A stretch of 27,141 nucleotides of DNA, taken from the IMG/VR virus record IMGVR_UViG_3300000256_000010, positions 6,660 through 33,800 of that record; one strand, 5' to 3'. The stretch's first letter is position 1, and the number at the start of each line of letters is the position of its first letter. The notes under the pieces are model-generated. The model ran no database searches. It was not told the origin of the DNA and saw only the letters and a program-made list of their open reading frames with translations. The stretch is from a virus. Shown piece after piece: positions 2,085-21,908 of the stretch. Both the position numbers and the translations under genes were made by a program.

Positions 2085-3350
2085 TTACCCTCCTGCCAGG
2101 AAGTTACGTCGTGAAAATTCCAATCTATTAATTAATTTTACAGCGCCACCAACATGGTCTATTGCTACAAATCCTTCTGGACCGGCAACTTCATAACCAT
2201 TATCTGTTTTATAAAATGCTTGTATGCCTTCTATAGCATTAAGTTTTTTCATTAATATTGACTTAACTTGTATAATTTGTTTATAAACTGCCAATATTGC
2301 CAGCAACGTGTTACTATTATCTTCAATAAATGCCCTAGTTGCTTCTATTTTATTAATACGTGCTTCGGCGGCCGGACTCCATCCTGATGCTGTTTTATCA
2401 GAAGCACCACCATCTTTAAGTTTATCTATTTCTGCTTGCTTTTTACTATCATAGTAATCAATGAATTCTTTCAAAAAAGCATTAGCATTTCCAACTTGTG
2501 GTCGGTCTGCTCTAATTTTACTATTAACAAATGGTTCAATATGTTCTCTAAACTCTTCATTGTTCATTAGTGTATTAAATCTATTTGCATTTATTTTTTG
2601 CAAAATTCCTTGTAATTTATCAAGTCCATTTGCTACTTGTGCTGTTTCACGTCCAGTCATTGTAGCACGACCAGTTAAATCTCTATAATCAGCATCTTGT
2701 GACCATACATTTTTATTTCCTACAGGGGCGGCCGCACCAAATGATGCTGTCAAATCTGACATCTCAGGACCACCACTATATAATGTGTGCCATACAACAC
2801 CAATCTCAGCCGCAAGTAATTCTTTTGCTAAATCACTGCCCGCTGGAACAGCATATGCTATTTCATTTGGTTTAAAAACAACATATGACTCACCATCTAT
2901 ATCTTCAGTTGTCAAATCACCTTTAGTAAACATAATATCGCCTTGCAATATACCGTCAAAATTAAGTTTACGCAAATGTTTTAATGCTATATTTAATTTA
3001 TGTGCTAAACCTGGTATTTTACCATGATTTTTTCTAATATCTGCAGGAGTTTTATTTAATAATGGAGTAGCATTAAATACACTTTTTGTTCCTACAAAAA
3101 ACTTACCATCTTTAGGATCATTACCAGCAATTACAGCAGGCTTACCATCCCATTTTACAGATATTCTACCCGCTTCGCTTGTTCCTGCTAACATTTCTGC
3201 TGTTTGTGCAAGATGATTTATTGCTTTTTTTACACCTTGGTAACCTTGATAAAATACTAAATCCTCTATATGAGTCATATGAGTATTTTTGCCGCCAGTA
3301 TCTTCAACGATCATCCATTTACATTCACCTTGAACTTCAAATAGTTTCAC
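2085..3350 (-). CDS. Large conserved-type phage protein with a ligase-like KxDG motif (421 aa)
   Basis: The first 170 residues look like the core of the covalent nucleotidyltransferase fold (DNA/RNA ligases, capping enzymes). SVKWDGKPAV at 64-73 fits motif I KxDG with Lys66. FVGTKS at 85-90 is a strand with basic residues. LQGDIMF at 135-141 could stand for the motif III region, and YVVFKPNEIAYAV at 156-168 for later core strands. The acidic Glu-Gly of motif IV is not evident. The C-terminal half is helical with Lys/Glu-rich parts. I think this belongs to a family of uncharacterised marine T4-like phage proteins (possibly DUF6267). The ATG at 3350 overlaps the upstream stop by 4 bases (ATGA), indicating translational coupling. 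Enzyme activity is inference. Confidence 0.7.
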   Translation of the reverse strand: MKLFEVQGECKWMIVEDTGGKNTHMTHIEDLVFYQGYQGVKKAINHLAQTAEMLAGTSEAGRISVKWDGKPAVIAGNDPKDGKFFVGTKSVFNATPLLNKTPADIRKNHGKIPGLAHKLNIALKHLRKLNFDGILQGDIMFTKGDLTTEDIDGESYVVFKPNEIAYAVPAGSDLAKELLAAEIGVVWHTLYSGGPEMSDLTASFGAAAPVGNKNVWSQDADYRDLTGRATMTGRETAQVANGLDKLQGILQKINANRFNTLMNNEEFREHIEPFVNSKIRADRPQVGNANAFLKEFIDYYDSKKQAEIDKLKDGGASDKTASGWSPAAEARINKIEATRAFIEDNSNTLLAILAVYKQIIQVKSILMKKLNAIEGIQAFYKTDNGYEVAGPEGFVAIDHVGGAVKLINRLEFSRRNFLAGG

Positions 3351-3658
3351 TGATCGTCCTCGCCTCCAATCCGTGATGTTCGTCCTTGGCGAGTTGTTCT
3401 ATCACTTGTACGCAACCCAGGTTTCTTAGACGTAACTTTTGGTTTTGCTAGATTTGCCAGATTCGACTCTGGCTGCTGGTAGAGCTGGTTGATATGATCA
3501 TCACTACCAATACCAGTTATATTTTTAAAACCAGCCCACGCACCACTAGGTAATTTTTTTAAATAATTTAAAATATTATTTCCAACCTTACCTTCCCAAT
3601 CATGTGATCCTGACGCGAGAAATCCATGGTCTTCTTTTATAAAGTCTTTTGCTCTCAT
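3347..3658 (-). CDS. Hypothetical protein, MRAKDFI-type N terminus (103 aa)
   Basis: This 103-residue protein begins MRAKDFIKED, an N-terminal pattern I associate with several small proteins of marine T4-like phages. The C-terminal third is basic and low in complexity (Arg, Thr, Gly, Lys) and ends with acidic residues, so it is probably disordered. No enzyme motif is visible. It overlaps both neighbours by ATGA junctions (3655-3658 and 3347-3350), placing it in one coupled chain between the 85-residue and 421-residue genes. Function unknown. Confidence 0.65.
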   Translation of the reverse strand: MRAKDFIKEDHGFLASGSHDWEGKVGNNILNYLKKLPSGAWAGFKNITGIGSDDHINQLYQQPESNLANLAKPKVTSKKPGLRTSDRTTRQGRTSRIGGEDDQ

Positions 3659-3909
3659 ATATCTACACCCTGCATAATATCTAAAAGTTCTGTAACAGCA
3701 TTGCTGAAACGTGCTTTAGATTCAGGATCAAGCTTCGGGTCTTCCCAATCAACTTTTACCCATCTATCTACAATATGTTCTAATTCTTGTGACATTTCAT
3801 CAACAATACCACTAGTCTTACCTGTAGGTATACGTGAAGATATTGAGTGAGGTCTATCTATGTGTATGTTAGATGTATCTGAGAAATCAGATATTTCATT
3901 CAATCTCAT
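3655..3909 (-). CDS. Hypothetical small protein (84 aa)
   Basis: The frame is open from a GTG at 3960, but I prefer the ATG at 3909. It gives MRLNEISDFSD, shortens the overlap with the upstream gene to 14 bases, and avoids an N-terminal stretch that would lie wholly inside that gene. The product is about 84 residues: an acidic, Ser/Pro-containing N-terminal part followed by a helical C-terminal part (MSQELEHIVDRWVKVDWEDP and a final amphipathic helix). Function unknown. Its stop overlaps the next start (ATGA). Confidence 0.6.
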   Translation of the reverse strand: MRLNEISDFSDTSNIHIDRPHSISSRIPTGKTSGIVDEMSQELEHIVDRWVKVDWEDPKLDPESKARFSNAVTELLDIMQGVDI

Positions 3910-4201
3910 TGTCACCAGCCTTACGTATGCTACGGATAAACTTTTTATTATCCTGTCCACGTATGCTGTTAAGAAGACGGCGTTCTAGCTCAGAAGCAAC
4001 TTCATGATCATAGTGTTCATGTATAATATTAACTAAATTAATAGCACTATCAATGATATGAATAGCACGACTTTCTATGATCGCACTTTTATTGTGATCC
4101 TTATACAAGGAATTCAATTCTTCTAATATTGTTCTAGTCTTACGTTTCATTGTCATATGTGTCACATTATGTTTATTATATTTAGTTAAATTGTGACCCA
4201 T
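3896..4201 (-). CDS. Hypothetical helical protein (about 101 aa)
   Basis: The start at 4201 forms a TGATG overlap with the stop of the DUF1353 gene, so translation is probably coupled. A later start (MTMKRKTRTILEEL) is possible, because the conserved-looking part begins there. The protein is almost entirely helical, with alternating charged and hydrophobic residues (SLYKDHNKSAIIESRAIHII and HEVASELERRLLNSI). It resembles small helical proteins of T4-like marine phages, but I cannot assign a role. Confidence 0.65.
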   Translation of the reverse strand: MGHNLTKYNKHNVTHMTMKRKTRTILEELNSLYKDHNKSAIIESRAIHIIDSAINLVNIIHEHYDHEVASELERRLLNSIRGQDNKKFIRSIRKAGDNEIE

Positions 4202-4734
4202 CAATTATCAAATTTAGACTGTTTACGTATTGCCCACCTACCAAAAGGGCGGACTGACCAAAAACAGGAAAATATTTTCCAATTCGGAATGGTAGGATCA
4301 GCATCATCCATGCCTCTCCTAAACACATTATCAGCTTGGGCCCGCAATACTTTTACAGTTTGTGGATTCAATCCTTTTACTGCCACAGTTTTACGCAATG
4401 CACCATATAATACATCGTGTATTACCGCCGCCCTTGCAATATCCCAAGGTGATATAATATTCCACATAATGCGATGTATAGATGCTAAATCTGTTTGATA
4501 CCCAACTGGTGCTGTAATTAAAATAGTGGTTGGTGTAGTTTTTACATCTACATTTAAATTTGTCCAACTAGAAACCCATTCGTCCATCCCAGCACTTCTA
4601 CTTTTTTCTAATTCATAGGTAAGTGGTTGAGTAAGTACCCAATATTTTGGTCCATGAAATTCAGCTTCTAATAAACCATGCCATGCCATTTTTGATGCTC
4701 CTAAATAAATTCTCATGGCGGGATGATTCTTCAT
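4201..4734 (-). CDS. DUF1353 family protein
   Basis: The core GYQTDLASIHRIMW (about residues 78-91 from the chosen start) and the following AAVIHDVLY are the hallmark of DUF1353, small proteins common near phage tail or lysis modules and of unknown biochemistry. The conserved Asp and the His-Asp pair could form an active or metal site. The frame is open from a GTG at 4776, but the ATG at 4734 (MKNHPAMRIYLG) is preferred: it lies about 20 bases downstream of a perfect late-promoter box, whereas the GTG lies upstream of that box and inside the helicase gene. The ATG at 4716 is an alternative. Family call is firm; virion role is inference. Confidence 0.75.
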   Translation of the reverse strand: MKNHPAMRIYLGASKMAWHGLLEAEFHGPKYWVLTQPLTYELEKSRSAGMDEWVSSWTNLNVDVKTTPTTILITAPVGYQTDLASIHRIMWNIISPWDIARAAVIHDVLYGALRKTVAVKGLNPQTVKVLRAQADNVFRRGMDDADPTIPNWKIFSCFWSVRPFGRWAIRKQSKFDN

Positions 4735-4753
4735 CGACAAGTTCCGCCAATGG

Positions 4754-4761
4754 TATTTATA
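4754..4761 (-). promoter_or_regulatory. T4-late promoter box (perfect TATAAATA)
   Basis: On the minus strand the last codons of the helicase gene and its stop spell TATAAATA, an exact match to the T4 late promoter consensus. The DUF1353 start codon follows about 20 bases later. This would separate late expression of DUF1353 and downstream genes from the early helicase transcript. Confidence 0.6.
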
Positions 4762-6172
4762 TGTCATCTGAAGCACTCATATTACGTAATAAAGATCTTA
4801 TTTTGCTTCCACTTGCTTCAGCAGTTACTTTAGGTGTATCCTCATTAGGTTGTACTGTTGCACTTCTGTTTATTCTGTCAAATATATTTGTTGATTGTGA
4901 TTGTGTTGCTGTATAAGAAGTATCTTCTTCTGGTTGTGCATCTTCTCCCAAGTCTCGTATACGCAAACTGCTTATATCAAATTCCAAATCTACTTTAGAA
5001 CCAACACCGCTACTACTTCTTGTTTTCATAAACTGTACTTGATAACGTCCACGCTCACGCATTGCTCTACTTGTAAAAATACCAATAACATTATCTGCTG
5101 TATTAATTTTACTAATACCACCTGCAATGTGACTATGATCAAATTCTATTTCGTCTACTGCACTTCTGTTTAACTGCGATGCTGTGACAAATACAACATC
5201 TAACTCTTTGGATAAGTTACGCAGTTCTTCTGCAACATACTTGTCTTTAACATATAAATCACTTGGTGCTACTTTAGTGCTTATTGGCATACACAAATCT
5301 AAATAATCTACTAACACTACGTCTGCTTTCATACCTTTTTGCACATTTAATTCTTTTATATAACTGCGAAAGTCATTAATGTTACTTTGTGCTGGCATAT
5401 ATTTTATTTGCAAGCTGCCTGCTTTTTTACTTACAAGTTTAATTTTCATTTCAACAGTATCCAAATCCTTAAATATTTGGTTTGTCGGAATATTAGATAT
5501 CATACTGTCAATTCGCATTGCTGTTAATTCCTCACTCAACTCCAATGTAAAATATAATACATTGAGTCCTGCAAGTATCCAATTAACTGAGAGATTTTGC
5601 ATAAACAAACTCTTACCACTGCCACTACCACCAGCAAATATTTGTAACTCACCTCTATTAAATCCACCAAACAATTTTCTATCAAACATTTCCCAACCAG
5701 TGCTAACTTGCCCATTACTTGTTTTTAAATTCATCAAACGTTCACGCGGATTGTCCCAATAATCAGTTCCCATGTCTGTTGTAAGGCCAACCTGCACAGC
5801 TTCCTTAATTTTGGCCTCTACTAACCCATAATCACCTTTCTCTAACAAATCCGCACTGTCTAATATCGCTCGTTCTAATTCTTTATGCCTACTAAATTGT
5901 TCAAACTCGTCTAATAACCAATTACTATGCTCTTCTAATTGATCCATTACAATATCTTGTAATTTAGAACCTGTTTTGCTGTTTATTTGCTTTACTTCTG
6001 GCAATGCCTTATATTCATCTACATAATTTAAAACAAAAGTTGCTATTGGACGCAAACTTCTATCAAAATTCTGTGGATTAAATATATTTTGCACCCTAAC
6101 AAATGCTTCTGGATTGCTTACTAGCATTTCCAAGTATAATTTCTGTAATTCTACGTTATATTCTTTATTCAT
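4757..6172 (-). CDS. gp41: Replicative DNA helicase, T4 gp41 / DnaB type
   Basis: This 471-residue protein has the DnaB/RecA-like layout: a helical N-terminal domain (about 1-150), then the ATPase with Walker A GGSGSGKS at 181-188, a FTLELS segment at 208-213 typical of DnaB helicases, and Walker B VVLVDYLDL around 285-292. TASQLNRSA follows as in DnaB sensor regions. It would unwind the fork 5' to 3' as a hexamer and load the primase. T4 gp41 is 475 residues, so the length matches. The ATG at 6172 is only 13 bases beyond the primase stop, giving a primase-helicase operon. No Shine-Dalgarno sequence is visible. The C-terminal 70 residues are polar and probably flexible. Confidence 0.93.
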   Translation of the reverse strand: MNKEYNVELQKLYLEMLVSNPEAFVRVQNIFNPQNFDRSLRPIATFVLNYVDEYKALPEVKQINSKTGSKLQDIVMDQLEEHSNWLLDEFEQFSRHKELERAILDSADLLEKGDYGLVEAKIKEAVQVGLTTDMGTDYWDNPRERLMNLKTSNGQVSTGWEMFDRKLFGGFNRGELQIFAGGSGSGKSLFMQNLSVNWILAGLNVLYFTLELSEELTAMRIDSMISNIPTNQIFKDLDTVEMKIKLVSKKAGSLQIKYMPAQSNINDFRSYIKELNVQKGMKADVVLVDYLDLCMPISTKVAPSDLYVKDKYVAEELRNLSKELDVVFVTASQLNRSAVDEIEFDHSHIAGGISKINTADNVIGIFTSRAMRERGRYQVQFMKTRSSSGVGSKVDLEFDISSLRIRDLGEDAQPEEDTSYTATQSQSTNIFDRINRSATVQPNEDTPKVTAEASGSKIRSLLRNMSASDDI

Positions 6173-7163: not shown

Positions 7164-7192
7164 ATTATATAGGAATTACTACTAGAAGTCAA
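7164..7192 (-). promoter_or_regulatory. Sigma70-type promoter of the primase-helicase operon
   Basis: Minus strand: TTGACT (7192..7187), 17-base spacer, TATAAT (7169..7164). This is one mismatch from the full sigma70 consensus. The -35 box overlaps the stop codon of the upstream radical SAM gene. The predicted start point falls at about 7157, the first base of the primase ATG. Confidence 0.8.
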
Positions 7193-8481
7193 GAATGTAT
7201 TTCATTATATACTACAGGAAAGAGTTCTTTATAATTTGTACCGCGCCGCTTATCTAATTCAGTGAGATATATATGAAATTGTTTTTGTAATTTTTTGTCA
7301 GGAGTGGACTGCTCTATGCTTTTGGCAATACCTCTATAATATTCTTTAGTAGATATTATAATATCTTCATCAAAGTCTTGTAATTTATTAATAGCATCAA
7401 TATAACCCCAGTCAAGAATTTTTGGTCCAAAAATTGAAGGATGTACATATGGTCGGCCAGCGGCTTGCATTAAACTATTATGTACTATTTGATAATCATC
7501 TTTCCCTCTATTAGTAACAATCCATTCATTCCACTCATTTGTTTTTTCCATTAGATCTGGTAAAGTAAATGTTGTTAATGGCATCCAACATATATTAATA
7601 CCTGTTGATATATCTGTATTTTTAAAAATATACTGAATATTCTTCTCAAATAGTTTGAGATCTAAACCAAACCTAACATATTCTGCCTCAGGTCCCCAAC
7701 AATCTATACTGCCAGTCACTTTACCACCACGAATATTATCATCTTCTATTAGTTTTTGTAACTTATCTAATCGCACTCTCGTTTTATCATGTTCTACACT
7801 AAGATTACTAAAAAATGTTATATTCAAATCAGGATTACGTTGAGTAGATAATAAATCTAATAATCTATCACTTTGTGGTTGTTTAAATGGCTCTCCACCC
7901 AAAACATATAACGTACGAAGGGATTTTAAATTTTCCTCCAGCCAAGTAAACATTTTTTCTGTAAGACTTAACTCTGTGTAATCCTCATAAACATCATATG
8001 CTACTCCTTCTGTCACAACATCTATATGACCAAATTTGGTATTTTCTGATTGCCAAGTACTACTAAAATGCTCACCACAATATATACAAGATAAATTACA
8101 ATTATTACTAAAATATATCTCTAACTCTGTTGGAGAGACATGTACTGCTTGCGGATTATCTAATAATTCTGGAGGTGAACCAGGGGCAAATGGATGAGTT
8201 AAATGTAACATTCTATCACTCATTCCACCAGCATCTTCTATAACTCTACAATGCTCACACCCTTTTTCAGGCCAAACGTTATCAAGCATTTGTTGTCTAG
8301 CAAGTAATTTTTCTGGAGTATTATGAAAATCAAAATTATCCGGAATAGCATCATGATTTACTCTATGACAACTGGCCGTCGTTCCTTTAGTAAGAAAAAC
8401 TGTACTATGTGCCCATTTTAAACGACACTGTAAATCTGATTGTATTGGATGCAGTACTGCTGTTTTTTGAGGTTTATGCAT
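7189..8481 (-). CDS. Twitch-domain-type radical SAM protein (430 aa)
   Basis: NNCNLSCIYC gives the radical SAM CxxxCxxC motif at Cys128, Cys132 and Cys135, which binds a 4Fe-4S cluster and SAM; VLGGEPF at 193-199 is the GGEP-type SAM-binding motif. More cysteines upstream (Cys38, Cys75, Cys78 in GCEHC) could bind a second cluster or zinc. The length and N-terminal Cys/His region fit the twitch-domain radical SAM proteins known from marine T4-like phages; their substrates are unknown. The ATG at 8481 directly follows the stop of the 124-residue gene (TAAATG), so the two are coupled. Chemistry would be radical-based modification of an unidentified substrate. Confidence 0.85.
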   Translation of the reverse strand: MHKPQKTAVLHPIQSDLQCRLKWAHSTVFLTKGTTASCHRVNHDAIPDNFDFHNTPEKLLARQQMLDNVWPEKGCEHCRVIEDAGGMSDRMLHLTHPFAPGSPPELLDNPQAVHVSPTELEIYFSNNCNLSCIYCGEHFSSTWQSENTKFGHIDVVTEGVAYDVYEDYTELSLTEKMFTWLEENLKSLRTLYVLGGEPFKQPQSDRLLDLLSTQRNPDLNITFFSNLSVEHDKTRVRLDKLQKLIEDDNIRGGKVTGSIDCWGPEAEYVRFGLDLKLFEKNIQYIFKNTDISTGINICWMPLTTFTLPDLMEKTNEWNEWIVTNRGKDDYQIVHNSLMQAAGRPYVHPSIFGPKILDWGYIDAINKLQDFDEDIIISTKEYYRGIAKSIEQSTPDKKLQKQFHIYLTELDKRRGTNYKELFPVVYNEIHS

Positions 8482-8856
8482 TTACTTAACCTTTTGGATT
8501 AATTGTATATTACGGCGTTTAGTTCTGCGTTGTGCTAGTTCATTCATACTAACATATGGACCATGGACTATTTCTACGTCTTTAGCCATAAATGTTTTAA
8601 TAAATGGTTTAAATGCGATAAAGTCTCGTTTGAGAAATATGTTTATAGGGAACATTCTATTTGATTCCCACCACCATACTTCGCCCAGTTCTAAAAACTT
8701 TTCTTTTGTCTCTATGTTTGGTAGTGCATTAAAATCGTAAACGCTTACTATAGTTGCATCTTTATTAAGAATAATACCAACGACTTCCCTATCAATATGT
8801 TTAATATAACTGATAAAAGGATACTTTTCTGTTAGCTCTTCGTATATGTTTGGCAT
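8482..8856 (-). CDS. Hypothetical protein (124 aa) coupled to radical SAM gene
   Basis: This 124-residue protein is unrecognised as to function. It is beta-rich in the middle (VVGIILNKDATIVSVYDF), has a striking Trp run (EVWWWES, about 59-65), and ends in a basic tail (QRRTKRRN) that could bind nucleic acid or RNA. The ATG at 8856 has no Shine-Dalgarno sequence, and a perfect late box lies 45 bases upstream. It is the first gene of a two-gene unit with the twitch radical SAM protein, so it may be its partner or substrate carrier; that is only a guess from adjacency. Confidence 0.65.
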   Translation of the reverse strand: MPNIYEELTEKYPFISYIKHIDREVVGIILNKDATIVSVYDFNALPNIETKEKFLELGEVWWWESNRMFPINIFLKRDFIAFKPFIKTFMAKDVEIVHGPYVSMNELAQRRTKRRNIQLIQKVK

Positions 8857-9698: not shown

Positions 9699-11474
9699 AT
9701 GCGTATAAAATTTATCGTATTTGGCTCAAACGCCGACACAGGTGATCTAACCACTGAATTAAGGCAAGATGGCTCACTTGAAGGAATAAATGATTATTTT
9801 CTAACGCCAATATATTATTTCTTAAAATCTTTCTATAAAAAAATTGGAAAATACTATAACAAATACATATGGCTACCTACTGAATATGGTGAATTCAAGA
9901 ATACTAGTGTAAAAAATATAATATCCATAATCGAAAAAGAAAAACCAGATATTATTTGTTTCTCTATGTTTTTATGGAATTTTGATGTACAAATAAAAAT
10001 AGCAAATATAATAAAACAAAAACATCCTAATATAAAACTTATTGCTGGCGGGCCGAGCATTGATCATAAAAATCCAAATACTGCTAATAACTATCCTTTT
10101 ATAGATTATTTTGTCTATGGTGATGGTGAAAAAGCTTTTACTATGTTGTTAGATAGTTTTTATGAGCCAATAGATGAAAGAACAATACCGAATTTAATAA
10201 CAAAAGAATTTAAAACTAATCACGAAATCTTACGATTTAAAGATTATCCAGCATTTAGTCCATATTGTGATTTAAAAGAAGACTTTATTAATGAACATAA
10301 TCAGATTACAGATTACTTAAACAAAAATACTACTAATAATTACGTACTTACTTACTCTTTCGAAAGAATACGTGGTTGTCCATATGCTTGTACGTTTTGT
10401 GATTGGAGTGGTGGGTTACATCACAAATTAAACAAAAGATTGGGAGATTGGAAGGAAGAAATAAAGTTTCTTTCAAAATTTAATAACATATCTATGCATT
10501 GGATTGATGCTAATATTGGAATGATGAAGGAGGATATTGAAATATTTAAATTTGGTCTATCATACACAACTAATTCTTTTTCCTTTAGCGGCGGGAACAT
10601 GGCAAAATTACATAAAAGCAATGTTTTTGATATATGGAGAGCTATATATGAACATGGGCGCGGCAATGTGTTTAAAGTATCATTACAACATCAAGATAAA
10701 CAAATATTAAAAAACATTAATAGACCAGAACTTCCATGGAATGAACATAAAAAATTATTAATTAATTTTAGACAAAAATATAATAAGGCAGAATATAAAG
10801 TAGAATTAATTCATGGATTACCTGGCGCAACTATTGAAGCTCATAAAAAACAATTAATAGAATTCAGTGAAATACCTATAAGTATTGCATCTTTGTATGC
10901 ATGGGAGTTATTACATAGTAGTCCTGCATATGACAAATCTTATCAAGAAAAACATAATCTAAAAATAATCACTGCTGGAGTTGTTAACACCAATGTCATA
11001 AACTCCACTATTGATGATTTATATCATAATGTATCATCTGATAATTATAATCCAATAGAAATATATCAATCAGAGAGAATATGCGATAGTAATTTAGGTT
11101 TTAAAGAATATTTGATTATCACGTATATGACAATATTATATAATATGTTATTTGAAACTACATTAACAACGTCTGAATACAATAAAATTAGATTTATTAA
11201 CTTTTTAGATTATGCAATGCCAATAATTGAAAAATTGGCCGGGGAGCAAACTAAAGACTGGGATGAGAAATTAGAAAAATACGGATTTATTATATTCGGG
11301 TTACCGTTTGGATCAAATAAAACTCAAACAGTACAACTTGGCTTAGGATTGACAATGATTTGTAATAAATTATTTAGTGGATTACTTTCAGGAAATATTC
11401 AAACACCATGGTGGGATGCGTATGGTCATATAGAAGATAAAACGAAACAAAGAGGTTCATTGAGTGAGGTTTAA
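9699..11474 (+). CDS. B12-binding-type radical SAM protein (591 aa)
   Basis: The N-terminal 150 residues look like the cobalamin-binding Rossmann domain of class B radical SAM enzymes (KPDIICFSMFLWNFDVQIKI at 82-101, then LIAGGPS at 114-120), although the DxHxxG cobalt-ligand motif is not visible. RIRGCPYACTFCDWSGG gives the cluster motif at Cys227, Cys231 and Cys234. A long C-terminal region follows. Relatives methylate or rearrange lipids, antibiotics or sugars, and this substrate is unknown. It follows the structural-type gene after 36 bases; no clear Shine-Dalgarno sequence, but TATAAAAA at 9676-9683 could be a weak late box. It is very AT-rich even for this genome, which may mark recent acquisition. 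Its 3' end overlaps the converging DnaE-like gene by 18 bases. Confidence 0.85.
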   Translation: MRIKFIVFGSNADTGDLTTELRQDGSLEGINDYFLTPIYYFLKSFYKKIGKYYNKYIWLPTEYGEFKNTSVKNIISIIEKEKPDIICFSMFLWNFDVQIKIANIIKQKHPNIKLIAGGPSIDHKNPNTANNYPFIDYFVYGDGEKAFTMLLDSFYEPIDERTIPNLITKEFKTNHEILRFKDYPAFSPYCDLKEDFINEHNQITDYLNKNTTNNYVLTYSFERIRGCPYACTFCDWSGGLHHKLNKRLGDWKEEIKFLSKFNNISMHWIDANIGMMKEDIEIFKFGLSYTTNSFSFSGGNMAKLHKSNVFDIWRAIYEHGRGNVFKVSLQHQDKQILKNINRPELPWNEHKKLLINFRQKYNKAEYKVELIHGLPGATIEAHKKQLIEFSEIPISIASLYAWELLHSSPAYDKSYQEKHNLKIITAGVVNTNVINSTIDDLYHNVSSDNYNPIEIYQSERICDSNLGFKEYLIITYMTILYNMLFETTLTTSEYNKIRFINFLDYAMPIIEKLAGEQTKDWDEKLEKYGFIIFGLPFGSNKTQTVQLGLGLTMICNKLFSGLLSGNIQTPWWDAYGHIEDKTKQRGSLSEV

Positions 11475-19042: not shown

Positions 19043-20107
19043 TTAGTTAGCCGACGCCTGCTTACTGACGCGGGTCATAACCGTTGTCTCCGCTAGGCGC
19101 TTCCAGTTGTCTTTCGACATTTTACGCAGGTCACCAATCTTCAGTGCCATACGTAGGCTCATTTCCCGAAGCCTATCCTTGTTTTCTTCCATGTAGTCCA
19201 AAATCTCGTCCTCATCGGAAGACTTAAACCCGTATCCTACAAACAACTCACCATTCTTGGCAATGTCCTTAATACGGAGTATTTTGTCGCGCATTGTATC
19301 GAGCGTCAAATCCAGGTAATGGCAACGCGACTGAAGTGCGTCCAAGTGATCTTTGATCTTCTTGCTCCGGACGTTTTCAAACTTCACGTTGGTGATAAAG
19401 ATCGCTGAGCCATTAAAGTCAAACATATTCGGAATCCCTTCCGCTCTCAGTTTAGCACTATCAGCATTCCAGTGGATTCGGCGTCTCTTACCTGAGTCCA
19501 ATGCCGCTTTCAGTATGTTGAGTGACAAGTCATCAAACAATACAGTGTCGCAGTCATCAAACACTAGCACATTGTTCTTGTCGCTGTATTCATACAGTTT
19601 GGCGTAAAGTCCAAGGGCAGTCATCGCGCCTTTGACTACGTCATAACGTATCTTCTTACCAGCAATCTTGTCAAACAATACGGCTTTCTCAAGAGTGGTT
19701 TCCACAATGTAGGACTTACCAACCCCTGGAGGGCCTGTTACGATCATTGCTCGAACATCACCATCGATTGTGGCTTGGGTCATACTGCCCAAGATCTCAA
19801 ATCGCTCTGCAATGCGAGCCATAACCTCAGTGTCGGTCTCCCCCGCTTCAACAGAGGCGCCAACCATTTTAGCGGCCGCTTCTTCTGCTACTGACTCACC
19901 CACACGTTCATAATGTAGTGGGGAATCTACCTTAACACGGATGTTCCGCTGAGGGTAAGCAGAGTTGCCAGTTCCATCAACTGTGATGTAACCACCTTTT
20001 TTGCCCACTTTATAATCGCGGACCAATGGGAATACTACATCTTCAACTATCCCACCGGGTGCATCCGCGTGGTATCCTTTCGTTACTGAAACATATTGTG
20101 TTGACAT
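19043..20107 (-). CDS. AAA family ATPase (354 aa)
   Basis: Walker A GPPGVGKS at 125-132 and Walker B VLVFDDCD at 180-187 identify an AAA ATPase. IFITN, later in the sequence, fits sensor 1, and a Cys/Arg-containing segment (LQSRCHYL) follows. The N-terminal 100 residues (YHADAPGGIVEDVVFPLVRD at the start, then basic strands) look like a small adaptor domain. This ATPase type is widespread in marine T4-like phages; its target is not known, remodelling of a nucleoprotein or host complex is possible. The ATG at 20107 has AGGAG seven bases upstream. The gene is visibly richer in GC than its flanks and closes a three-gene operon ended by a strong terminator. Confidence 0.85.
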   Translation of the reverse strand: MSTQYVSVTKGYHADAPGGIVEDVVFPLVRDYKVGKKGGYITVDGTGNSAYPQRNIRVKVDSPLHYERVGESVAEEAAAKMVGASVEAGETDTEVMARIAERFEILGSMTQATIDGDVRAMIVTGPPGVGKSYIVETTLEKAVLFDKIAGKKIRYDVVKGAMTALGLYAKLYEYSDKNNVLVFDDCDTVLFDDLSLNILKAALDSGKRRRIHWNADSAKLRAEGIPNMFDFNGSAIFITNVKFENVRSKKIKDHLDALQSRCHYLDLTLDTMRDKILRIKDIAKNGELFVGYGFKSSDEDEILDYMEENKDRLREMSLRMALKIGDLRKMSKDNWKRLAETTVMTRVSKQASAN

Positions 20108-20130: not shown

Positions 20131-20514
20131 TTAAACTAATTCGTAGGGTTTACTGTAGTTCCCTACTTCGAGGTTGAAGTAAAAAGCGGTATGGAAATAA
20201 TCCACCATCGCATCACTCTTGTCAAACCATTCCCGGCCGCCTTCTGCTTTACCGGGTGCTGTCTTAATGACATCAACAATGTCATCAAACAATTTGGCAT
20301 GTTCACCATACATGTGAGTGTGGTAATGATTGACCTGAGCATACCCGCGATCACCTTCACGCATTATGTCGGAAAAATCAACATTGCCCTTCTTAATGGT
20401 AACTGTCACCGATGAGTGATGTTGCTTCTTTACTCCAAATTTCAACTCGGGTCCGAATTCCTCTTTAAGAGTTTCTCGGATTGCCTTTACTTCGTTTGTT
20501 CGTATATAAGCCAT
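20131..20514 (-). CDS. LPD29-like protein (127 aa)
   Basis: The first 45 residues (VKAIRETLKEEFGPELKFGV, then SSVTVTIKKG) match the look of the LPD29 domain found in large polyvalent phage and plasmid proteins: a helix, the FGxELKF-type strand, and a Ser/Val-rich strand. The middle is His-rich (VNHYHTHMYGEHAK), and an aromatic C-terminal part (VDYFHTAFYFNLEVG) follows. The function of LPD29 domains is unknown. The ATG at 20514 has AAGG five bases upstream. It lies between the 84-residue gene (6-base gap) and the AAA ATPase (23-base gap), and shares their higher GC content. Confidence 0.6.
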   Translation of the reverse strand: MAYIRTNEVKAIRETLKEEFGPELKFGVKKQHHSSVTVTIKKGNVDFSDIMREGDRGYAQVNHYHTHMYGEHAKLFDDIVDVIKTAPGKAEGGREWFDKSDAMVDYFHTAFYFNLEVGNYSKPYELV

Positions 20515-20520
20515 TACGCC

Positions 20521-20775
20521 TTATCTCCGTGAGTGGTGGTTGGTTTCAACTACGCATCTTGGGACGCCATAACGGCCATCCATATTCCAACGATGCGTCA
20601 ATTTGCCTTCGATCCCATACCGTTCAACAGTAAGGGGCGTATCAAACCCGCCTTTGAGCAGGTTAAATTCTGCAACCGCATCCATAAGGGTAGCGGTGGA
20701 TGCGGATATAAAAATCCGGGCACCACCTAGTATGGGTTCACGGTAAAAAACTTTAAAACAGCCTTGATCTAACAC
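20521..20775 (-). CDS. Small hypothetical protein, GTG start (84 aa)
   Basis: 84 residues from a GTG at 20775; an in-frame stop lies shortly upstream and no better start is available. The protein is mixed alpha/beta (CFKVFYREPILGGARIFISA, then LMDAVAEFNLL, then RYGIEGKLTHRWNMDGRYGV) and basic at the C terminus. No family recognised. It is the first gene of the operon with the LPD29-like protein and AAA ATPase and shares their codon style. The leader contains a possible sigma70-type promoter at 20837..20810. Confidence 0.6.
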   Translation of the reverse strand: MLDQGCFKVFYREPILGGARIFISASTATLMDAVAEFNLLKGGFDTPLTVERYGIEGKLTHRWNMDGRYGVPRCVVETNHHSRR

Positions 20776-20809
20776 TTGGGTAACTCTCTGTTTCTTAACT
20801 TACTATACT

Positions 20810-20837
20810 AGTCTAACATATCGAGCAGATCTGTCAC
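20810..20837 (-). promoter_or_regulatory. Possible sigma70-type promoter of the AAA ATPase operon
   Basis: Minus strand: GTGACA (20837..20832), 16-base spacer, TAGACT (20815..20810), five of six and four of six matches. A second candidate -10, TATAGT, lies at 20807..20802. The GTG start of the first gene is about 35 bases downstream. Confidence 0.35.
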
Positions 20838-20881
20838 TCTTTTTATGACGCTAAGTGCTTGATTTCATTGAAGAACGACAA

Positions 20882-20929
20882 ATTTCTGATATTTCTGGTG
20901 AAAAATTGCTGAAATTGCTGGTTTTCTGA
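20882..20929. repeat. Iteron-like direct repeats, five copies of an 8-mer
   Basis: Five direct copies close to (A/T)TT(T/G)CTG(A/G): ATTTCTGA (20882), ATTTCTGG (20891), ATTGCTGA (20905), ATTGCTGG (20914), TTTTCTGA (20922). Spacings are 9, 14, 9 and 8 bases. They lie in the 239-bp non-coding region between the FkbM gene and the AAA operon, next to two longer tandem repeats. Confidence 0.55.
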
Positions 20930-20933
20930 GCAT

Positions 20934-20988
20934 TAACCCGATACTTTATAGGGTATCTAGGGCAATAACCCGATATTTTATAGGGTAT
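20934..20988. repeat. Two tandem 23-bp repeats with dyad symmetry
   Basis: Two copies, 20934-20956 and 20966-20988, differ at one base and are 32 bp apart, close to three helical turns. Each has a near-palindromic core: CCCGATA, three bases, TATAGGG. This is the layout of paired operators for a dimeric regulator. It lies upstream (minus strand) of the AAA ATPase operon, about 160-215 bases before its first start codon. Confidence 0.6.
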
Positions 20989-21014
20989 TTGAGGTATATT
21001 AGGAACTGCTTATA

Positions 21015-21908
21015 TTAGGGTTTGCTACTGGACTTGGTTTTCTTAGCCTTTTTCTTAGCCTTTTTCTTAGCCTTCTTTTTCGTAGTTTTCTTAAGAGTTT
21101 TCCACTTATCATTAACGCCTTTAACCTTCTTTAAATTGTCTATGGTAATATCTATTTCTTTTGGATACGCAAAAATATTAATTATCTGGCTAGTTGGATC
21201 ATCAAATATACATCCCTTACTCTCAAAAAAGTTATCAGGATTAAAATTATTTGAAGGAACCCAATATGCTTCATAACCAATATCTTTAACAAACTGGAAT
21301 AATTCTTTTGTATTTTCCTGTGCCTCGCACATAATAAAAGGACGATGTTGGGAAAACAATTTCTCACCTGTTTGTAGTATATCTGCTTCATTACCACTTA
21401 CATTAACTTTTACTAAACCACAATGCTCTAATCCAATATCATCCAATTTAAACACAGCACATTGTTCTAAAGTATCACCACTATCCTTAATAGTAGTTTT
21501 TAAATTACCATGATCTATTTCATCATTAATATTATTAATAGGAATATATAAAGGACGTTGAGTACCTATCGCCGCTTTAAAATGTTGTGCGTTGAATGCG
21601 TTGTTGAGGGTTAAATTGGTGACTAAAAAATAATAATTTAAATCACTAGGTTCAAAACTTAAAATTTTACCTTCATCTCCAACTAATTTACTGTAAAAAA
21701 CAGAATGAATACCGATATTAGCTCCTACATCAACTACATTAGTGCCTGGACGTATAATTTGTGATGCTAATGCCAATTCTGCTTCTGCGTATTCGCCATA
21801 ATTATCTAAACTACGACCAATTACAACATCATTTAAATTATAAGCAAAATCACCATGCTTACATTGTTTTACTCGTACACTACCTTGTGATACAATTGGA
21901 AATCCCAT
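21015..21908 (-). CDS. FkbM family methyltransferase with Lys/Ala-rich tail (297 aa)
   Basis: NVVDVGANIGIHS (57-69) is the SAM-binding motif I of FkbM methyltransferases, ILSFEPSD (82-89) carries the motif II acidic residue, and the later VKVNVSGNEADIL (167-179) corresponds to the family's KxDVEGxExxVL block, with the usual acidic residues partly replaced. FkbM enzymes O-methylate sugars or small molecules. The last 28 residues are a histone H1-like tail of Lys and Ala (TKKKAKKKAKKKAKK), coded by a 12-bp tandem repeat, and could bind nucleic acid or acidic surfaces. The ATG at 21908 lies 9 bases after the stop of the other methyltransferase gene, so it ends the uvsX-uvsY chain of genes. Confidence 0.8.
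   Translation of the reverse strand: MGFPIVSQGSVRVKQCKHGDFAYNLNDVVIGRSLDNYGEYAEAELALASQIIRPGTNVVDVGANIGIHSVFYSKLVGDEGKILSFEPSDLNYYFLVTNLTLNNAFNAQHFKAAIGTQRPLYIPINNINDEIDHGNLKTTIKDSGDTLEQCAVFKLDDIGLEHCGLVKVNVSGNEADILQTGEKLFSQHRPFIMCEAQENTKELFQFVKDIGYEAYWVPSNNFNPDNFFESKGCIFDDPTSQIINIFAYPKEIDITIDNLKKVKGVNDKWKTLKKTTKKKAKKKAKKKAKKTKSSSKP
21037..21072. repeat. Three tandem 12-bp units coding the Lys/Ala tail
   Basis: Three consecutive 12-base units (plus strand TTTTTCTTAGCC, the first with one difference) encode repeated KKAK near the C terminus of the FkbM protein. Unit number can change by slippage without shifting the frame. Confidence 0.75.

Follow-up and report, generated by a model that had tools for sequence, protein, structure and literature searches.

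The noncoding gap at positions 20776-21014 of the window (the whole stretch of viral DNA analyzed here, 27,141 nucleotides) is best read from its sequence as the promoter region of a minus-strand operon encoding an 84-aa protein, an LPD29-domain protein, and an AAA ATPase. Comparison across the phage genome shows that the predicted promoter is a member of a multi-copy module class, further copies of which precede additional gene clusters in this phage. This minus-strand promoter is the main feature of the gap and was missed by the original prediction, which had described iterons and paired dyads there. Taken as a whole, we consider it fairly probable that the gap combines an early promoter, an upstream bending or activator site, and locus-specific dyads serving as regulator sites.

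Genomic context of the gap

The virus record containing the window is 33,800 bp long, and the window sequence is also present in a 322,647-bp jumbo-phage contig (G001), where the gap occupies positions 52,671-52,909. The kind of phage and its relatives suggest that it is marine. Genes of the T4 superfamily (UvsX, UvsY, a UvsW-like helicase, and the single-strand binding protein) flank the region, and no cultured phages with DNA like that of the window were found. As predicted, the gap measures exactly 239 bp and is flanked by two minus-strand genes. With a median gap of 8 bp in G001, it can fairly be called long for such a compact genome, but the length is not extreme: 23 of 380 predicted gaps reach at least 239 bp, some of which hide small genes. 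The possibility that the repeats are part of an unannotated gene was checked by open reading frames, and coding DNA was rejected as an explanation of the gap. No reading frame longer than 24 aa lies wholly inside it, the longest overlapping frame (37 aa) falls mostly within the neighboring gene, and no conserved frame was seen. Likewise, no Rfam RNA or tRNA was matched in the gap.

The first gene of the operon (20521-20775, minus strand, GTG start) encodes the 84-aa protein, which is without a family match and has relatives at 57-99% identity. It is followed on the same strand by a 127-aa protein (20131-20514; phrog_10415, LPD29 domain) and by the AAA+ ATPase (19043-20107; phrog_1250). The closest matches of the ATPase are jumbo-phage proteins from the PA5oct group (40-50% identity), and T4-type NrdC.10 is among its relatives. 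Two further observations concern other genes of the window. The FkbM-type methyltransferase has a lysine-rich C-terminal tail arising from 12-bp repeats (21038-21085), and the phage replication region encodes two radical-SAM-like proteins (7189-8481, minus strand; 9699-11474, plus strand), the second with a B12-binding domain, although the radical-SAM matches of both fall below the family cut-off.

The predicted promoter and its module class

In the direction of the operon, the predicted promoter begins with an upstream box, TCAATGAAATCAAGCACTTA (20852-20871, minus strand), which is identical at 19-20 of 20 positions in all relatives. A -35-like hexamer, GTGACA (20832-20837, minus strand), lies 14 bp downstream of the box and is identical in all four lineages. 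It is followed by an extended -10 element, TGtTAGACT (20810-20818, minus strand), whose hexamer reads TAGAGT in two relatives and TATAAT in other class members. The start-site region and 5' leader (20776-20809, minus strand) are identical at 32-34 of 34 positions in relatives and contain GTTAAG (20799-20794), AGAGAG as a possible ribosome site, and a shared ACCCAAG motif from 20781. In a sigma70 scan, GTGACA-16-TAGACT was recovered as a sigma70-type promoter with TG before the -10 and 9 of 12 matches. Such matches are frequent by chance (28 found, 23.7 expected), and the weight of the promoter assignment therefore rests on the class model.

The block upstream of this promoter recurs in G001 and in a second contig, G003. 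The module comprises a 20-bp box, 14 bp, a -35-like hexamer, 16 bp, TGn with the -10 hexamer, and AGTA. An 80-bp full profile built from nine copies detects six strong copies in G001 (at 52.7k, 181k, 187k, 219k, 265.9k, and 281.7k) and two weak ones (5.6k and 179k), together with three strong copies and one weak copy in G003. When the 52k and 63k copies were left out, so that the model contained no copy of the window locus, the window promoter was still found at 46 bits (E=1.5e-12). The full model had no match in ten Markov (shuffled) genomes, and a strict pattern found five copies in G001 and none in controls. In wide scans the module also turned up in many additional viral contigs, with two or three copies in several of them; some of these contigs represent nearly identical strains of the same phages. 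One of the remaining module-bearing contigs is L195, the best annotated match of which is again a PA5oct-group protein; the module pattern is absent from phages PA5oct and Melnitz themselves. A host-derived promoter was also considered and set aside, the full module occurring in 0 of 369 gammaproteobacterial genomes, in which too few bases were searched to conclude.

The genes behind the copies in G001 include DnaK and Hsp20 (5.6k) and many small unknown proteins, and inspection by eye added a MoxR-like ATPase with VWA proteins (179-181k) and a ligase-like protein (281k cluster). The DnaK is a full-length protein of 627 aa followed by the Hsp20-type protein (G001 3121-5492, equivalent to L047 3121-5492), and both lie behind a weak module copy. 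A separate motif, ATAAATA / GTATAAATA, is strongly enriched upstream of G001 genes, with ATAAATA in 44 upstream regions against 14.6 expected, in agreement with T4-type late promoters.

The -10 hexamer is TATAAT in five of the six strong G001 copies and TAGACT in the window copy. This departure (TAGACT or TAGAGT rather than TATAAT) suggests a weak promoter that would require upstream help. The original proposal that the AAA-ATPase operon is preceded by a control region is supported: a promoter of the genome-wide class is found there, and both the box and the first dyad are kept in four lineages. The locus resembles the early promoters and oriE iterons of T4 in its T4-superfamily genes, its putative sigma70-type early promoter, and the repeats near it. 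It differs from oriE in that the window repeats consist of A/T tracts and have drifted among relatives, and to our knowledge the box module is not a feature of T4.

The upstream box as a putative IHF site

The 13-bp core of the box, AATCAAGCACTTA (20852-20864), is an exact match to the consensus of the DNA-bending protein IHF, WATCAANNNNTTR (PMC8942017, PMC7581858). IHF bends DNA by up to 180 degrees (PMC8942017), and work cited in that paper concerns sequence-directed bends that replace IHF. A single match is weak by itself, because the window contains eight exact matches where 3.9 are expected. Across the class, four of the promoter-proximal boxes of seven G001 copies match WATCAANNNNTTR exactly and three have one mismatch, and intergenic sites matching the consensus are enriched (13 against 3.5 expected), mostly due to the box-promoter class. 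The box may be an IHF site, or it may be the site of another protein. A search of the phage records yielded no HU/IHF-like gene. Gammaproteobacterial proteins are the closest relatives of the phage DnaK (up to 74% identity), which is consistent with a host that has IHF but does not prove one.

The box is constrained beyond the IHF consensus, with N4 mostly [GT][CG]AC and a second TCA 9 bp upstream. When 25 boxes were compared, the TCAA and TTA positions were invariant or nearly so, a conservation that is circular in that the list was gathered by a pattern demanding most of these positions; the matches of the seven proximal G001 boxes and the intergenic enrichment are free of this circularity. 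Most boxes are A-rich at -12 to -9, yet positions -7, -6, and N4 are conserved too. Second boxes occur 34-36 bp upstream at the 181k and 187k copies of G001 and in G003, L081, and L082. Conservation beyond the IHF consensus (C at -6, C at +9) is what would be expected if the box were bound by a dedicated activator or repressor other than IHF, encoded by phage or host, that ties the promoters into one regulon, with the bend and dyads as accessories. In keeping with this alternative, NNAC is over-represented at N4 in less related contigs as well, among the matches listed, and in some boxes the sequence makes up a 22-bp dyad, AAGTCANTGANNTCANTGACTT, that is nearly perfect. On the other hand, the best conserved box positions include those of WATCAANNNNTTR, and shared ancestry of the copies within a genome may conserve extra positions without any binding. 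We regard a dedicated factor as a serious but less probable explanation of the box.

The preferred reading, a bending or activator site upstream of an early promoter, has a counterpart in IHF-assisted phage promoters such as the early promoter of phage Mu, where an IHF-consensus site likewise lies upstream of a sigma70-type early promoter and bending is proposed. In contrast to these, the jumbo-phage module is repeated at many loci, its box is more narrowly defined than the IHF consensus, and IHF is its putative partner; the window copy further adds strongly curved DNA and tandem dyads. No relevant papers on IHF and jumbo-phage promoters were found among the open-access papers searched.

Scans of the wider collection returned other arrangements. 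With the gap set to 34-44 (the class gap being 33), the single match was L077, which is probably due to chance. A broad IHF-type scan gave, among the matches listed, chance matches mixed with a possible second class of other spacing. In a different group of promoters, carried by four contigs (L189, L202, L218, and L266), a ATCAAGTACTTA box overlapped by a terminator-like hairpin immediately precedes a TTGAC-TGCTATAAT promoter.

Predicted bent DNA in place of iterons

Upstream of the box, five copies of an 8-mer had been described at 20882-20929. The repeats are indeed clustered, with four copies within one mismatch and five within two, counts that were each reached in 0 of 300 shuffles, but they are degenerate, and their strict 8-mer periodicity is not significant, being matched by 101 of 300 shuffles. 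The same stretch (20871-20934) is predicted to be intrinsically curved DNA and contains five A/T tracts, centered at 20923.5, 20914, 20904, 20892.5, and 20882.5 (spacings of 9.5, 10, 11.5, and 10 bp), and 0 of 300 shuffles were as curved. Two of three wedge models place it first for curvature among all 63-bp segments of G001, and in the third it ranks about 14th, 13 places exceeding it; from these models the ranks are usable rather than the angles. Because the repeats coincide with the roughly helically phased A/T tracts of DNA predicted to be strongly curved, they are better read as phased bent DNA than as iterons, as far as these models can be relied upon. The L002 and L038 versions of the region are similarly curved and the L029 version is less so. 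Extreme curvature was rejected as a feature of the whole class, the other copies lying at the 51st-93rd percentile of upstream regions. Promoters with upstream phased A-tract DNA share the spacing of A/T tracts about 10 bp apart, whereas the curvature in the gap lies farther upstream (~70-130 bp before the start), beyond the putative protein-binding box.

Conservation among relatives

The region exists in four distinct versions: that of the window and G001, that of L002, that of L029 (also found in G002-G004 and L007), and that of L038. A distant relative that has the 84-aa gene, L010, has neither the dyads nor a strong module match. Between the window and L029, the box (20/20), the -35 hexamer (6/6), and the leader (33/34) are kept, together 59 of 60 positions, as is dyad 1 (17/19), whereas drift is seen in the repeats (36/58), in the spacer between the dyads (6/13), and in dyad 2 (11/19). 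The difference between dyad 1 and the drifted parts (Fisher p = 0.016) is suggestive only, since the segments were chosen after the alignment was seen. Alignment with relatives had been proposed as a check for conserved repeats between drifting spacers; in L029 the repeats diverge as the spacers do, while operon and promoter are kept.

These comparisons bear directly on the suggestion that the gap is a replication origin, with iterons, dyads, bent DNA, and an IHF-type site beside a replication-priming promoter. Origins can indeed combine bent DNA with IHF sites, repeats, and dyads, those of T4 coincide with promoters, and the dyads of the gap are found at only one place per genome. Against this, the promoter module is present at several loci, and the supposed iterons are degenerate, coincide with A/T tracts of predicted curved DNA, and have diverged in L029, where the operon is retained. 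Nor does GC skew, read in 5-kb steps, show a switch at 52.8 kb of G001, although the skew appears to follow gene direction throughout. Origin iterons are thus not supported, and we consider an origin very improbable here.

The dyads

Two dyad repeats spaced 32 bp apart had been predicted, and both are present as 19-bp dyads of the form ACCCnATAnTTTATAGGGT, the sole matches in the window (0.02 expected). Dyad 1, ACCCTATAAAATATCGGGT (20968-20986, minus strand), has the arms ACCCNATA and TATNGGGT and is retained by all four lineages, with 17-18 of 19 positions identical; dyad 2, ACCCTATAAAGTATCGGGT (20936-20954, minus strand), is present in three of the four. The arms pair imperfectly, at 7 of 8 positions, and the 27-bp direct repeat is identical at 25 of 27 positions, which was equalled in 0 of 300 shuffles. 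In G001 the dyads occur only at the gap locus, apart from one half-like match at 8603, and in G003 there are no copies within two mismatches besides this locus. A genome-wide operator network for the dyad was accordingly rejected, and the dyads are best read as putative locus-specific regulator sites.

Two features count against this part of our explanation: the dyads are far from the promoter, and in relatives they also lie just upstream of a divergent gene. The L002, L029, and L038 versions have an opposite-direction gene between the FkbM-type methyltransferase gene and the dyads, encoding 192 aa in L004 and L009. It is conceivable, and we hold it as a tentative alternative, that the dyads belong mainly to this gene and are a leftover where it was lost, as in the window. 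The 192-aa gene starts ~30-100 bp from dyad 1 in L002, L004/L029, and L009, and dyad 1, which is nearer to it, is better conserved than dyad 2. Yet the window lineage, which is without the gene, keeps both dyads intact, a weak test because the loss may be recent (the window and L002 are nearly identical here).

Elements acting in RNA, with the dyads as terminators of the upstream methyltransferase gene or as part of a structured RNA, appear quite unlikely. The plus-strand RNA (20930-20992) folds well, the two dyads pairing into one long hairpin (z -3.35), and a perfect hairpin, ACCCTATAAAATATAGGGT, with flanking T runs is found in the unrelated phages L040 and L041, apparently as a terminator. 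In the window, however, no T run follows either dyad and neither appears in the terminator scan, folding of the minus strand (the gene direction) is ordinary (z -1.38), the dyads lie between divergent genes in relatives, and Rfam gave no match.

A model for the region and its implications

In the model that we propose, host RNA polymerase with the main sigma factor would transcribe the module early in infection, and a DNA-bending protein, most simply host IHF, would bind the box, which lies ~60 bp before the start site. At the window copy, the intrinsic bend would stand in for the second upstream box that several other copies have, and a dimeric regulator bound to the dyads, ~130-185 bp upstream, could be brought back to the polymerase by the bends. 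A more far-reaching possibility, which we advance with less confidence, is a regulon built on an unreported module common to several uncultured lineages, in which one specific box-binding factor would co-ordinate takeover genes and the window copy would be tuned by its extreme bend and private dyads. The takeover genes in such a regulon would be those for DnaK/Hsp20, the MoxR-like and VWA proteins, the NrdC.10-like AAA ATPase, and many small proteins.

Little is known of how uncultured jumbo phages control transcription, and a recognizable promoter module would allow its target genes to be listed from sequence alone. The example of this gap indicates that apparent origin iterons can be bent promoter DNA, and, judging from the module, the switch may be either a bending protein of the host or an unknown regulator.
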